Below, one piece after another: positions 9,919 through 17,450 of a DNA stretch of 64,000 bases. Position numbers and translations under genes: made by a program. Position 1 is the first letter of the stretch, and every line of letters starts with the position of its first letter. The notes beneath the pieces were generated by a model. It was not told the origin of the DNA. It did not search any database and worked only from the letters and a program-made list of their open reading frames with translations. Origin of the DNA: Absidia repens (Eukaryota; Mucoromycota; Mucoromycetes; Mucorales; Cunninghamellaceae); contig MCGE01000001.1 in the NCBI GenBank assembly GCA_002105175.1, positions 3,100,001-3,164,000 on the forward strand. The letters are read 5' to 3'.

Positions 9919-10605
9919 TGTTGCGGCTAAATTTGTGGTTTTAGTCCAACTGGATTGTGTTTTTGTAGGTTTTTTATGTTTTTCTGGGTTAAATAGGATG
10001 TCTTGAGTGATCCTTTGGTGTAGCTTTGATCGTTTGGAGCTTTGAAAAATAATTTTCTTCCTTCGGCGGAATTTGAAATATTTTGTTCCTGAATCGGACA
10101 AAAATAGATTTGATAGTAGTGAGCACCAGAACTTTTGTAGATAAAGTCCAACTGTAGAGAAAGTTTATAAAAAATAAACTTGAAAAAGTAAAATAAAATA
10201 AAAAGAAAAGTATTGACCTTTGTTGGTTCAATAAAAATAAGTGTATAACACACAGTAAAAATAAAATAAAAAGAGGACTTGTAGTCACAAAAAAATAAGA
10301 GAAAGTTTCTATATAGACGATAGAAACAAAATAAAAATAAGACAGTGATTTGGTGGTTAAAAAACCTTTGTACTGAATTTTATAAAAAAGGTTGAGATAA
10401 ATATGTAAAAATAAATAACTAAAGAAAAAAATAAAATTGTTGCGGGGGAAGTGGAGGTATTTATACTAATCAAAAAAAGAGGCTAACTATATATGAGGGG
10501 GTGGTGCAGGACGACACTTGTCGACACTTGTCAACATCGGTCAGCATGAAAACCAGTCACTGCATAGCCAGAGGTCAGGGGATGGTCAGAGGCCGATCCT
10601 CGACA
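9919..10605 (-). repeat. 3' LTR of the intact retroelement
   Basis: A 687-bp direct repeat of 15506-16190. It carries TG/CA ends, an internal GTGAGCACCAGAAC motif at about 10117, AT-rich promoter-like DNA in the middle, and a GC-richer end near 10500-10605. It differs from the partner by an extra G at two places (near 10445 and 10498). Confidence 0.9.
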
Positions 10606-11228
10606 TCCTGGGGGCCAGGAGAAGACTGTCCTCCAGTCGTAACGCATCTTGAGAAATTGATTTATGATTTTTCGTTTCGTTTGTTGTTTGTTGTTCGGTG
10701 TTGAGGTAAGATAATATTTCAATTTCGAAATAATGTAGAGTCAGGTAAAAAGTGAGCACCAAAATAAAAGTGAGTACTGAAATATGTATATATCGTTTGT
10801 TATAATAATGTAGAGTCAGGTATCGTTTTTCGCGATCTGTAGCGTCTTCTGAGTATTGCAATTTCTTTAGATAACGTTTGATTTGATTGATCGTTCGTTC
10901 GTCCATGTTGATAATTTCTTTTGTTGTGGTAGTTGAGCTTTTTACGACGTCGCACTTGTTGGTCGCATCTTCGGGGAATTTCAATCGTTCAAGATAATAT
11001 TTGAGTTGATTAATTTTTCGTTCTTCCATCGTTGTTATTTGTCGAGTCACCAGATATGTGATTGTAGAATTCGTTAAGTGCCAAATGCGTGAGAATAGAA
11101 TGAGCACCAAATATAAATATAGAGTTTGACAGAGTATCAGTTGTGTTGTGTGTATCAGATAAAAGTAAGATAATGTGAGTTAATTTAGAGGATAGCTTTT
11201 TACGACGTCGTCCCTTTTTTGGTCGCAT

Positions 11229-11302: not shown

Positions 11303-14262
11303 TCAGTATCCCAGACGTGATAGGAAATCAGCGGCTTCCTGTTTTCGTCCATTTCGATACTTAATTTCAAAGTCATATTCAGCCAAGTATTGGATCCATC
11401 TTGCTACAATGCCAGATACTTTGGGTGATTGTACCAACCATCGTAAAGGTGAGTGGTCTGATATGACAGTGAATTTTTTGCCAAGTAAATAAGGTCTGAA
11501 TAGTTGCAGGCTCCATACTAGGGCGAGACATTCCAATTTAGTAGCACCGTAGTTTTGTTCACTGTTTTTTAATCCGCGACTTGCATAAATCACAGGGTGT
11601 TCTTTGCCATCGTCGTCTAGCTGCGATAAGATGGTACCAATTCCTTTTTGGGAGGCGTCGCACACAATAATAAAGGGTTTCGAAAAATCAGCACGTCGTA
11701 GTATAGGTGCTTGTGTTAATTTTTGTTTTAAAAGGTTGAAGGCATCTGTGGCTTTTTCGTTCCAGGTAATATTTTTTGTCGTCTTGGTTTGTTCATGTAA
11801 CGGTCTTGCAATGGAAGCAAAGTTTTTTATGAATCTTCGATAGTAAGAGGCCAATCCAATAAAGCCCCTGATTTGTTTAAGGGTTTTAGGCGGTGGGAAT
11901 TCCTGAATTTTTTTATTTTTTCTTCATCCGTCTTTATTCCATTTTTTGTTATCACGTAGCCCAAAAATTTCAATTCGTCTTTGAAGAATACGCACTTGTC
12001 AATGTTGAATAATAATCCTCCTTGTCGTGCACACATGAATACTTGTCGTAGATCCTGTATGTGTTGTATATAGGTTTTGGAATGGATGTTTAGGTCGTCA
12101 ATGTAAGCAACAAGGCACTTGTTTAGTAATGGACCAAAGCATAGGTCTATTAGGCGTTGAAAGGTAGCAGGACTATTTACTAACCCCATAGGCAGCATTT
12201 CGTATTGATAGGTTCCAAACTTTGTCACGAATCCAGTCAATTCTTTGGTTTCTTGTTTCAATGGTACTTGGTGGAAACCGGAACGTAGGTCTAGCGCTGT
12301 GAATATTCTTGAACTGCCTAGTTCATCAATCAAGTCGTCAATTTTTGGCAAAGGGTAAGCGTCAACTTTGGTCAAAGCGTTTAGTTTGCGATAGTCAACA
12401 ACCATTCGGTAGTCACCATTCTTCTTCTTGACTAATATTATAGGAGCGGTATATGGTGTACTTGCTGGTTTGATGATTCCCAGGTCACATAATCGGTCCA
12501 ACTCTTGCTTCAAGTATTCTTGTTCCACGGGTGCCATTCGGTATGGTCTATGTCGGATAGGTGGTGCATTTTCCTTCAGGATAATTTCATGTTCCAGTAG
12601 TGTGGTCTTGCCCATTCTGTCATTGTGCCAGTCAAATACATCTTGGAATTCTGTAAGTAGATGTATAAAGGACTTGCGTATATCAGGCGGTACATCTCCT
12701 AACTGTAGTTTTTCTTCCTTTGTAGGGTCCAATTCTTGTGATGGTTGTATAGTGTCGTCGTCTTTTATCTCCATCTGTGCTAATTCGTATCCTGTGGATT
12801 GTTCGTCGTCTTCTTCTATTTCAAACTTTGTCATTCGATGCGCAATGATAGTGTTCGGTGGGTAACTTTTGTCGTTGTCCGTTATGTTGATATCTATGAA
12901 CTGATTGTCTTTCAAATATTTTTCATAGGTGACATCTGGTTGCATGTGGATGATAGTTGGTAGAGCGTTATCATTGGGTGTATTTAAATCAACGGTGCAC
13001 ATGGTGTATGGTGGAAGGGTGAATCCATTTTCTTTGGTACTGATGGTTACTTCGGTGTCCGATACATGGTTTATTCGGAAAGCGTAGTCTTGGTCTTCAG
13101 CAGGTGTGATTTGACACAATTCTTGATCTTCATCGTCTTTGTCGTCGTGTTCCCATTCTTCTTCTTCTGTTTCTTCATCGGTGATTTCATCTTCATCACT
13201 TGTATCTTGATCGTCCATTATTGGTGTTGGTTTGACAGGGATTGGTTGACTTGGTGGTGGATTCTCTTCTTCATAGATAACGTGGGATGCTTTCAAGGTA
13301 ACCGGCTTTGATGATGCTTTGATGTATGTGATAGGAATAATCATCTTCTTGTGTTTATAGGTTACAGTTAGTGTTCCCATTTTGATGTTGATAATGGCTT
13401 GTGCATGATTCAACCAATCGATTCCTAGGATTAGGTGAGATGGGCATTGTGGCAGTACTTCCATGTTAGTGGGTATACTAATGCCTTCGGTTATTTTGAT
13501 AGGGACATCAAGGACTATTCCAAGGGTAGGTTGTCTGGTTCCATTACCAAGGGTGAATACATTGGTAGATGGGGTATCGATTTCCATTCCCAGCATCTTC
13601 AACATGGTTCTTGACATACATGATTTGGCGGCACCACAATCTATCAAGGCTTTGATTTTTCTGTCCCCAATATATACTTCAGCATATGCGGCAGTTGTCA
13701 CAACTTCTCCTTCTTCCATGGCGTTCAATGTTATAGGCGGCTTTCTTCTTTTGGGTCGACAGACATCACGTAGCTGTTTCTTTAGGTATGGTGATGCTTC
13801 GAGTAGATCTCCAACTTCAATATCGGCTTTACGGGTAAGGACATCGTCAGCGATACTATATTTAATAGCGGGATGTGTAGGTACTGATCTTTGTTTCTTT
13901 TCAACCGTTTCTTGTGTAGGAATATTTTGTTGTGGTGGTTGTGTTGATGAGGATGGTGTGTCTTCCAATCCATTGGTTCTTCTTTTCTTTGCTGATTTTG
14001 GATCATGTAGGACATCAGGTAATCTGTCTTTTCTGGTAGCAACGTAGAAATCTATATCTTCTTCATCATCATCTTCTTCTTCTAATAAAAGGTTAGTATG
14101 TTTATTTTTATCTTTATACTTGTTTCGAATATCCATGGTGGTTAGGTTATGGGTTTGTTGTTGAGTATTGTTTTTGTTATCTTTATGTGGTTGGTTATGT
14201 GTGGATTTGTTAGGCGGGTTTTCCAACTGACCATCAACTGCAGTTGCCCGTGCTAGTTTTTT
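11303..14262 (-). CDS. Pol polyprotein: aspartic protease, reverse transcriptase, RNase H (frameshifted)
   Basis: Reading starts by -1 slippage at 14256-14262, not at an ATG. Domains in order: an acidic, disordered leader; a retropepsin-like protease with ALIDCGAAKS (coded near 13640), in which the usual D-S/T-G triad is D-C-G; a long acidic linker; a reverse transcriptase with a DYRKLNALT-type finger motif, DLRSGFHQ and the catalytic box YIDD; then RNase H with VCDAS, the LECLAL segment and SDHSPLRWL. The frame breaks once, between T runs at 11909-11923 (plus strand), separating RT's thumb end from RNase H. This is a one-base homopolymer change that could be a real mutation or a sequencing error. 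The frame stops right after RNase H (DFLSRLGY). Integrase is absent. Synthesis of element cDNA would be its role; integration would need help in trans. Confidence 0.85.
14233..14262 (-). promoter_or_regulatory. Probable -1 ribosomal frameshift site between gag and pol
   Basis: On minus the sequence is TCA AAA AAC TAG in the gag frame. It contains the slippery heptamer A AAA AAC (plus 14256-14262), with the gag stop codon as the next triplet. Slipping by -1 opens the pol frame (AAA CTA GCA...) with no stop. About 6 nt downstream, CGGGCAACTG can pair with CAGTTG...CCCG (6 bp plus 4 bp with a GAAAA bulge), a plausible stimulatory hairpin. A AAA AAC is an established -1 slippery sequence in retroviruses; function here is inferred. 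Confidence 0.75.
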
Positions 14263-15319
14263 GACTGATGATTTTGTTGAGTGGGTTGTTGTGTTTGATG
14301 TTGTTGGTATTGTGGATTGTGTTGATACTGTTGATTGTTGTATGAGCGTCGGTTATTGTAATTGGGACGGCGGTTTTGATTCATGGGGGGTGATGGATGA
14401 TAACCATCGTAGTCACCGTAGTTAGGATCAAAGACGGGGTCTTGATTTTGGTTATTGTAATTGCGTTGGCCATTATTGTGATGATACGAGTTTTGATTAT
14501 AATGTGGGGCATTGTATTGTCGGGTTTGATGACGTGGGTTATTGTATCGAGGGTTGTGTGGTTGGTTGTATGTCCCATTTTGATTTTTTGAGAAGTTATT
14601 GAATTCTTCTTTGATGATACTTCTGATGGATTTTGTATATCTTTCATGTCCAGTGGGTTTGTTGAAGTGATAGCGTTCAAACTGGGTGAGTTTGTAGCGG
14701 TTTGATAGGGAGACATTTGAATGGTATCTGCGGGATGAGCAATACGTCGTGGGTGGAAGGGATTGTCAGCCATTGTAACCTGTTGAGGGTTATGTGCAGT
14801 CCAATAACCTTCGGCGGCTTTGAGCCATGCGTCAATGTCTTTACAGCCAAGTGATATGCAGTGTTGTTGTATGATAGGATGTACTCCTGCACGGAATCGG
14901 CTTTGGATCATTGATTCGGAATCAATTTCGGCAAGTTCAGCAGCTTCAAACAGTCTTGCGTAAAATGTTCTTGGATGTTCGTCAATACCTTGTACCATGT
15001 TGTTGAAGGCATACTCATATGTTTGTATGAGTTCAGGGGTGATATATTGGTCCATTAATTTTTTCATGACTTCGGAGTATGAAAGTGGGTCTTTTGTTTT
15101 TTTTAGCAATTTGTTTACAAAAGTCCTAGCAGCGTGGTACAATTGTGTCTTGAGTATAATCAGCTTGCGATCTTCATCATTGATGTTTGAGAGTGCAAAG
15201 TAGTTATCCAGTGTTTGTTTAAAATTTCTGAAGTCTTCTCCTTCGAATCCAGAAAAGGGCATTAGCTTCATTTTCGGTTGGTAGATAGGTCCGTTGGCCA
15301 ACACAGTTTGTTCGTTCAT
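14253..15319 (-). CDS. Gag protein of the retroelement (one-base frameshift)
   Basis: The start chosen is the ATG at 15319 (MNEQTVLANGPIYQ); upstream frame continues through the PBS into the LTR and is unlikely to be translated. The body carries a retrotransposon Gag-type capsid region with FEGEDFRNFKQTLDNYF, then AFNNMVQGIDEHPRTFYARL and WLKAAEGYW. The C-terminal part is Asn/Gln/Tyr-rich and basic and lacks a CCHC zinc knuckle. The long open frame leaves the natural one at a short A run (plus 14631-14634). The alternate frame downstream gives the typical Gag-tail composition and ends at the TAG at 14255-14253 beside the slippery site. The 1067-nt length is one base short of a multiple of three, which agrees with a single-base deletion. 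Confidence 0.8.
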
Positions 15320-15479: not shown

Positions 15480-15503
15480 ATCACCCCTGTAGTGAGCACC
15501 AAA
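15480..15503 (-). other. Primer-binding-site-like sequence
   Basis: Just inside the 5' LTR, after ...CGCAACATATT on minus, lies TGGTGCTCACTACAGGGG. It begins with TGG as expected for pairing with a tRNA 3'-CCA, and predicts a tRNA ending AGTGAGCACCA. I could not assign that tRNA. The same TGGTGCTCACT core recurs inside the LTRs and in the element tail. Confidence 0.55.
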
Positions 15504-15505
15504 TA

Positions 15506-16190
15506 TGTTGCGGCTAAATTTGTGGTTTTAGTCCAACTGGATTGTGTTTTTGTAGGTTTTTTATGTTTTTCTGGGTTAAATAGGATGTCTTGAGTGATCC
15601 TTTGGTGTAGCTTTGATCGTTTGGAGCTTTGAAAAATAATTTTCTTCCTTCGGCGGAATTTGAAATATTTTGTTCCTGAATCGGACAAAAATAGATTTGA
15701 TAGTAGTGAGCACCAGAACTTTTGTAGATAAAGTCCAACTGTAGAGAAAGTTTATAAAAAATAAACTTGAAAAAGTAAAATAAAATAAAAAGAAAAGTAT
15801 TGACCTTTGTTGGTTCAATAAAAATAAGTGTATAACACACAGTAAAAATAAAATAAAAAGAGGACTTGTAGTCACAAAAAAATAAGAGAAAGTTTCTATA
15901 TAGACGATAGAAACAAAATAAAAATAAGACAGTGATTTGGTGGTTAAAAAACCTTTGTACTGAATTTTATAAAAAAGGTTGAGATAAATATGTAAAAATA
16001 AATAACTAAAGAAAAAAATAAAATTGTTGCGGGGAAGTGGAGGTATTTATACTAATCAAAAAAAGAGGCTAACTATATATGAGGGGTGGTGCAGGACGAC
16101 ACTTGTCGACACTTGTCAACATCGGTCAGCATGAAAACCAGTCACTGCATAGCCAGAGGTCAGGGGATGGTCAGAGGCCGATCCTCGACA
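15506..16190 (-). repeat. 5' LTR of the intact retroelement
   Basis: A 685-bp repeat bounded by TGTTGCGG and CCTCGACA on plus, nearly identical to 9919-10605. Its inner edge adjoins the PBS-like site; its outer edge is followed by GTGG, the duplicated target. Confidence 0.9.
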
Positions 16191-16899
16191 GTGGTTTTAG
16201 TCCAACTGGATTGTGTTTTTGTAGGTTTTTTATGTTTTTCTGGGTTGAATAGGATGTCTTGAGTTATCCTTTAGTATAGCTTTTGCTTGTTTAGAGCTTG
16301 AAAATAAATTTGTTCCTTGGGCGGAATTTGAAATATCTTGTTCCTGAATCGGACAAAAATAGAATTGATAGTAGTGAGCACCAGAACTTTTGTAGATAAA
16401 GTCCAACTGTAGTGAAAGTTTATAAAAAATAAACTTGAGAAAATAAAAAAAATAAAAAAAAGGAAAGTATTGACCTTTGTTGGTTCAATAAAAATAAGTG
16501 TATAACACACAGTAAAAATAAAAAAGAGGACTTGTAGTCACAAAAAAATAAAAGAAAGTTTCTATATAGACGATAGAAACAAAATAAAAATAAGACAGTG
16601 ATTTGGTGGTTAAAAAACCTTTGTACTGAATTTTATAAAAAAGGTTGAGTAAATATAACGAAGATAAGAACTAAGGAAAAAAAGAGAATTGAAAAAAAGT
16701 GGGATATATATATATAGAAATAAAATTTTAAAATGGGCTAAAAAAGACGCCGGTGTAAAAAATACGACGGTTGAAAAAAGACATCGGGGTAATGTGTAAC
16801 AATAAACAAAAAAACTTAAGGAGCTTATTGATGTTGATGTTGTTGATGTTGATGTTGTAGATGTTGTTGTTGGGAGCGGACTCAGGCCGATCCTCGACA
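16191..16899 (-). repeat. Middle LTR, right fragment (diverged)
   Basis: It resumes the LTR family at GTGGTTTTAGTCC, exactly where the fragment at 9899-9918 stopped, and ends CCTCGACA at 16899. It shows many substitutions and indels against the intact LTRs, plus a (TGT/TGA)-rich stretch (GATGTTGATGTTG near 16830-16870), so it is clearly older. Confidence 0.8.
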
Positions 16900-17450
16900 G
16901 TAGCTTTCAAAGTCCGTTACGGCTATTTTTAAGTTTGATATAGGCAATAACGGTGTTGATTCAACCTTTTTGTTAAAGCTTCAGTTATATTTTACACCAG
17001 ATGTATAGTGTATAAGAGTATATAAAAGTACTCTTGTTCTTATTTGAACGGATTTGTAGTGAGGGTCAAAAAATATCTTTCCCCTGAATCGGAATTTGAA
17101 ATTGTCCTTTTTTGTTTACTTGACTGCAGTCTTGAAAATATATAGAGAGCACCAAATTTATATTTGATCATCAGTAGTGAGCACCAGAACTTTTGTAGTT
17201 AAAGTCCAACTTGAGATAAAAGAAGTTTTTGAAAAATAAAACTTGATAAAATAAAGTAGAAGTATTGACCTTGGTTGGTTCAATAAAATAAAAGGGTATA
17301 ATTGACTCTGTAAATAAAATATAAATAGATTTCTATAACAAAATAGAAATAAAAAATAACTTGATGGTTATAAAAAAACCTTTGTACTAAACTTTTTATT
17401 CAAACTGAAGAAAAAACTAATTTCTTCTAAAAAGTCTGGCTATTTATACT
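16900..17450 (-). repeat. Oldest LTR, right fragment (strongly diverged)
   Basis: It begins GTAGCTTT, then shares scattered LTR blocks in the right order: CCTGAATCGGAATTTGAAA near 17083, GTGAGCACCAGAACTTTTGTAG near 17177, TATTGACCTTGGTTGGTTC near 17263, and AACCTTTGTACT near 17378. It is the probable partner of 9830-9898. A clean target duplication is not visible. Confidence 0.6.

Follow-up and report, generated by a model that had tools for sequence, protein, structure and literature searches.

A probable -1 frameshift signal at the gag-pol junction of a Ty3-type retrotransposon family in Absidia repens, with integrase in a separate reading frame

The window, a 64,000-nt stretch of contig MCGE01000001.1 of Absidia repens, carries a Ty3-type (Ty3/Gypsy, Metaviridae) LTR retrotransposon on its minus strand, to which all feature coordinates below refer. 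The element is bounded by a 5' LTR (15506..16190) paired with a 3' LTR (9919..10605), and the two differ by 0 mismatches and 2 gaps over 687 aligned positions, a near-identity from which we conclude that the insertion is young. A putative primer binding site, TGGTGCTCACTACAGGG (15485..15501), was read by eye. The 5' part of gag (14381..15319) starts at an ATG near 15319, within the frame 15751-14381, and has a weak Pfam match to Retrotrans_gag that falls below the curated cut-off; this frame is lost before the slip site. The C-terminal part of gag, which is Q/N-rich and ends at the signal as ..HQSKN and a stop, lies in a different frame (14253..14765), and gag of the window copy is therefore broken upstream of the signal. 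Pol continues in the -1 frame relative to the gag end with an aspartic protease and a reverse transcriptase (RT; 11827..14352, Pfam), followed in another frame by RNase H (11303..11923, Pfam), which ends as ..SRLGY and a stop; a second pol frame break lies near 11.83-11.92 kb. Of a separate integrase ORF there is only a remnant (10586..11179), in which by-eye comparison with related integrases recognizes the N-terminal residues only. The arrangement follows the Metaviridae layout of LTR-gag-PR-RT-RH-INT-LTR, with the position of integrase taken from related copies, as the window copy retains a mere remnant. With its broken gag, broken pol and integrase remnant the window copy is defective, and the signal was therefore judged on the family and not on this copy. 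Further LTR-like copies adjoin the 5' LTR (window 16174-16650 and about 17173-17415), which suggests nested or neighbouring insertions.

At the junction, the gag frame ends TCA AAA AAC TAG (14264-14253), so that a slippery heptamer A AAA AAC (14256..14262) of the form X XXY YYZ lies in the zero frame at the very end of the upstream ORF, flush with the stop TAG (14253..14255). The first-pass annotation had described the same letters, with the heptamer touching the stop and the -1 frame open into protease, and both points hold, the -1 frame leading into protease-RT. The flush stop proved to be a feature of families A and B only, as in the more distant families F3-F5 the gag stop is TAA or TGA and lies five sense codons past the heptamer. 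We scanned six gag ORFs, among which one family is represented twice; each contains a single in-frame A AAA AAC, invariably at its end, and over the 2,050 codons there are 13 in-frame heptamers of other X XXY YYZ types (Z not G). Readthrough of the gag stop as a route to pol was considered and set aside, the window-copy gag frame soon meeting another stop (by eye).

The junction is shared by many copies in this genome. A DNA search returned 36 close places, all of which were fetched, and TCAAAAAACTAG is present in 34 of them; L035 has one A fewer at the heptamer, and L036 (the same copy as L062) has suffered a deletion that removed the site and the protease, fusing gag and RT into one 1089-codon frame. 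This last copy is the only one with gag and pol in a single frame, an arrangement that the first-pass annotation had named as evidence against a frameshift, and it arose through loss of the site itself. Gag is uninterrupted for at least 307 codons from the first ATG to the site in 21 of the 36 close copies, and in 19 an uninterrupted gag (307-352 codons) is accompanied by about 385 or more open pol codons in the -1 frame. A search with Gag reached more distant families at 29-45% identity in which the heptamer is kept; 17 such loci (L045-L061) were fetched and grouped by eye into F3, F4 and F5, and 16 carry the heptamer, L053 being one A short. Genome-wide, a pattern for the downstream stem that allowed two mismatches found 53 places, all exact, and 0 in the control. 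Of these we read 52, leaving out one on C47 near 180394, and TCAAAAAACT is carried by 50. Conservation of the heptamer across copies, which had been put forward as the check on the proposed signal, is thus borne out, the two misses (L035 and L053) having each lost one A. Two observations concern the wider set of elements. Four family B junctions (L037, L042-L044) follow one another at a spacing of about 5.0 kb on G000 C78, at about 286.5-301.7 kb, like a tandem array. Three loci (L080, L081 and L082) belong to still more distant Ty3 families with a zinc-knuckle gag (by eye) and pol in the -1 frame; in these, TCG GGA AAA G, with the heptamer G GGA AAA, precedes the gag stop by four or five codons.

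In an alignment of five families, the 40-nt window that begins at the site is better conserved than any other up to 400 nt away in both directions, with an identity of 0.75 between A/B and the F groups against 0.36 for the median window. From the slip site to the first pol ATG the -1 frame is without stops in six representatives (A, A2, B, F3, F4 and F5), and over the same stretch the other two frames hold 2-9 stop-bearing codon pairs in each of six pairs tested. On an alignment built on the -1-frame proteins, and hence favouring that frame, 13 of 15 pairs have a -1-frame dN/dS of 0.35-0.72; the exceptions are A2-B (1.03, shifted frame 1.02) and A-A2 (undefined), and shifted-frame values span 0.53-2.05, the lowest control (0.53) being that of A-F3. 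The downstream ORF is thus open in the -1 frame and protein-like from the slip site on, at dN/dS of 0.72 or below in those 13 pairs. All 50 copies with the site open this frame with KKL and have DGQL within the first 14 residues. A stop falls within the first 37 codons in two of the 50 (L044 and L052), and in L014 and L042 a -1-frame stop follows soon after this early stretch.

We regard it as highly probable that the junction is a programmed -1 ribosomal frameshift signal of this Ty3-type element family, the reading that the first-pass annotation had offered and that conservation of the heptamer, the frames across families and coding in the -1 frame all support. Ribosomes translating gag would arrive at A AAA AAC a few nucleotides short of a hairpin. 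The majority would go on to terminate, in families A and B at the codon that follows and in F3-F5 after a further five codons, and a minority would slip back by one base, decode AAA AAA CTN and enter protease-RT-RNase H, yielding a Gag-Pol fusion whose transframe part starts Lys-Lys-Leu. Within this scheme we infer slippage itself, its rate and its stimulation by the hairpin from the sequence.

Pol might instead be a separate product, with ribosomes reinitiating or entering internally at the first pol-frame ATG (ACCACCATGG, 14134..14136) and the heptamer being incidental. In family A this ATG stands in an excellent start context 126 nt past the heptamer start, and one other ATG precedes it, but in the three F5 copies measured 342-603 nt pass before the first pol-frame ATG, with 7-10 ATGs intervening. 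Moreover, the -1 frame from slip site to ATG contains no stops and for most pairs resembles protein-coding sequence, and the heptamer persists while its surroundings diverge, and we consider independent initiation of pol improbable. Equally improbable to us is that RNA polymerase or reverse transcriptase slips on the A-run and so brings gag and pol into register in some transcripts. The site does consist of six A, copies with five exist (L035 and L053), and a predicted Rhizopus protein (P0036) crosses the junction as ..NRKKLNGS.., a reading that the gene model could also cause; yet a seventh A is absent from all 52 stem-bearing copies read (by the pattern used, 50 have six; two have five), and the phase of the heptamer, its spacing and the downstream stem are conserved although polymerase slippage needs none of them. 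That there is no programmed signal and the frame offset is mere decay, reflecting indels accumulated by a dead element, is hardly credible, for although the window copy has additional frame breaks in gag and pol, the identical -1 offset recurs at the heptamer in 19 of the 36 close copies, all 19 with gag uninterrupted, and in families whose gag is 29-45% identical, a cross-family comparison against which decay is hard to hold.

Downstream of the heptamer, an inner hairpin (14224..14246) can be formed by CAACTG (14246-14241), an 11-nt loop and CAGTTG (14229-14224), and in families A and B it can be extended (14215..14250) by pairing of CGGG (14250-14247) with CCCG (14218-14215) across a 5-nt bulge. 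Both stem arms are as previously annotated, but the spacer is 5 nt to CGGG and 9 nt to the inner stem and not 6-7 nt. The six-pair inner stem can form in all 10 aligned sequences, drawn from 12 distinct ones, the remaining two of which vary only past the stem. Five of the stem pairs are invariant, and at one a C-G has become U-A in each of the four F rows, probably through a single evolutionary event. Shuffling gave a covariation score as high in 2 of 500 cases; for the number of pairs changed at both positions and the number of further pair types, two of the five measures, shuffles were as high in 458/500 and 500/500. The covariation in the stem that had been put forward as a check is therefore present at one compensated pair of the six and no further, apparently as one event, and it weakly supports the predicted hairpin. 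Against dinucleotide shuffles the family A hairpin has no extra stability (z -0.3 to -0.6), and z is about -2 in family B and -1.8 to -3.5 in F3-F5. In L023 the predicted minimum is a different fold. By eye, loop TGATG and a downstream CATCA are candidate pseudoknot partners in F3-F5, as are ATGGT and ACCAT in B; for family A at most 4 bp are available, and no pseudoknot is claimed.

Beyond this genome we found 29 related Gag proteins, 11 of them with organism names: Absidia, Chlamydoabsidia, Halteromyces, Rhizopus, Choanephora, Blakeslea, Mucor and Thamnidium. A taxonomy look-up places Absidia, Halteromyces, Choanephora and Thamnidium in the Mucorales, to which Chlamydoabsidia, Rhizopus, Blakeslea and Mucor also belong. 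Lys-Asn stands at the C terminus of 19 of the 29 (P0023 has Lys-Lys), and over the final 100 residues of these 19 proteins it otherwise occupies 8 of 1881 positions; the remaining nine are partial, fused or otherwise altered models (by eye). As only three of the 11 organism-named Gags end in Lys-Asn (P0011, P0012 and P0015), the other eight resembling partial, fused or altered gene models, most of the Lys-Asn support comes from Gags outside those 11. From these protein ends we infer that the genes of the related Gags would carry the heptamer, and KKL stands at the junction in three predicted proteins that seemingly cross it (P0019, P0036 and P0041). A pattern search of viral_contigs for related junction DNA outside this genome gave 0 matches.

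The second feature of the family is the place of its integrase. In the usual Ty3/Gypsy layout, as given in an excerpt of PMC3248453, integrase is the last domain of pol. Here the RNase H end ..SRLGY is followed by a stop in 17/17 copies read past RT (L063-L079, of families A, B, F3, F4 and F5; L069 is broken earlier), and integrase comes after that stop as a separate ORF. We measured the intervening gap in 14 of the copies L062-L079, leaving out L067, L069, L074 and L075, which have no long integrase ORF. The integrase ATG lies 147-264 nt past the RNase H stop, and the gap contains A-runs of 8 to 88, varying from copy to copy in lengths that possibly include assembly error. From its own ATG integrase spans 439-443 codons in 11 of the 14 (L062-L066, L070-L073, L076 and L078) and is shorter in L068, L077 and L079. 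Its frame relative to pol is not fixed across the 14 copies, and gap lengths differ modulo 3 even among copies with full integrase (148 in L065 and 147 in L066; 227 in L071 and 225 in L072). Because of this variation, and because 10 of the 14 have integrase-frame stops within the gap, expression of integrase by a fixed frameshift from RNase H is unlikely. In L072, L077 and L078 the RNase H stop alone parts RNase H from an in-frame integrase, and readthrough is therefore possible there. P0042 and P0043 matched only the zinc-binding (H2C2) and core (rve) models of integrase at E 0.1 or better, with no C-terminal chromodomain that would place the element among the chromoviruses. Near the A-runs in the gaps of L070, L072, L073 and L076 there are repeated TTTGGTGCT-like motifs (by eye), similar to the first part of the putative primer binding site. 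Downstream of integrase, L063-L066, L070-L073 and L076-L079 have one more ORF, 164-197 codons long from stop to stop, in F4 and F5 again preceded by a poly-A run; the one scanned, that of L063, is without convincing Pfam match.

Of 12 foreign pol proteins found, nine were read and six have the SRLGY end (P0030, P0032, P0034, P0035, P0038 and P0039). The six foreign integrases read, from a length-limited search with long fusions outside its range, comprise four of 439-448 aa and two of 714-722 aa with extra C-terminal sequence, and all six start at a matching Met (by eye). Apparently pol likewise ends after RNase H, with integrase separate, in Rhizopus. We tentatively propose, as a possibility a little short of even, a Mucorales-wide Ty3-type lineage in which PR-RT-RH would be made by -1 Gag-Pol fusion and integrase freely from its own conserved AUG downstream of long intercistronic poly-A tracts, perhaps by poly-A-driven initiation; internal initiation of integrase at the A-rich gap is our guess.

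Retroviral -1 frameshift sites with A AAA AAC include that of MMTV gag-pro, and the junction described here resembles such sites in having X XXY YYZ in the gag frame and, by prediction, a structure a few nucleotides downstream and a Gag-Pro(-Pol) product. It differs from them in that the stop follows directly (in two families), the predicted structure is, so far as tested, a simple hairpin, and integrase is not part of the fusion. The Ty3 element of Saccharomyces cerevisiae shares the domain order PR-RT-RH-INT with the element here, and its frameshift is +1. Ty3 frameshifting is described as mechanistically quite distinct in the excerpted text of PMC5009743, which also counts A_AAA_AAC as one of the -1 heptamers at which mammalian ribosomes shift most readily, reports pol in the -1 frame in 28 of 51 animal LTR elements (2003 survey), finds classical heptamers with -1 pol common in animal LTR elements, and states that fungal LTR elements use both +1 and -1, with less skew. 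As far as the excerpts of each source go, a Paracoccidioides Gypsy element (PMC4427930) has pol at -1 and shares the offset, but its polyprotein includes integrase, whereas here pol ends after RNase H, and the AgCR elements (PMC2582038) share the -1 pol offset. In all of these, the animal elements included, the offset presumably serves a common purpose. The signal is thus of a known type, and we document a new member in one fungal lineage.

The separate integrase ORF is the more unusual of the two features, and our search of the open-licence literature found no description of such an ORF in a Ty3-type element. The many recent copies make it likely that the recoding mode of a fungal lineage is fixed by this work as -1 at A AAA AAC, and the families provide a natural comparison, as the zero-frame stop adjoins the slip site in A and B and lies five codons later in F3-F5. 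If truly expressed alone, the separate integrase ORF would be a departure from the usual Ty3-type pol layout, and if the proposed lineage-wide arrangement is true, integrase would not reach particles within Gag-Pol.
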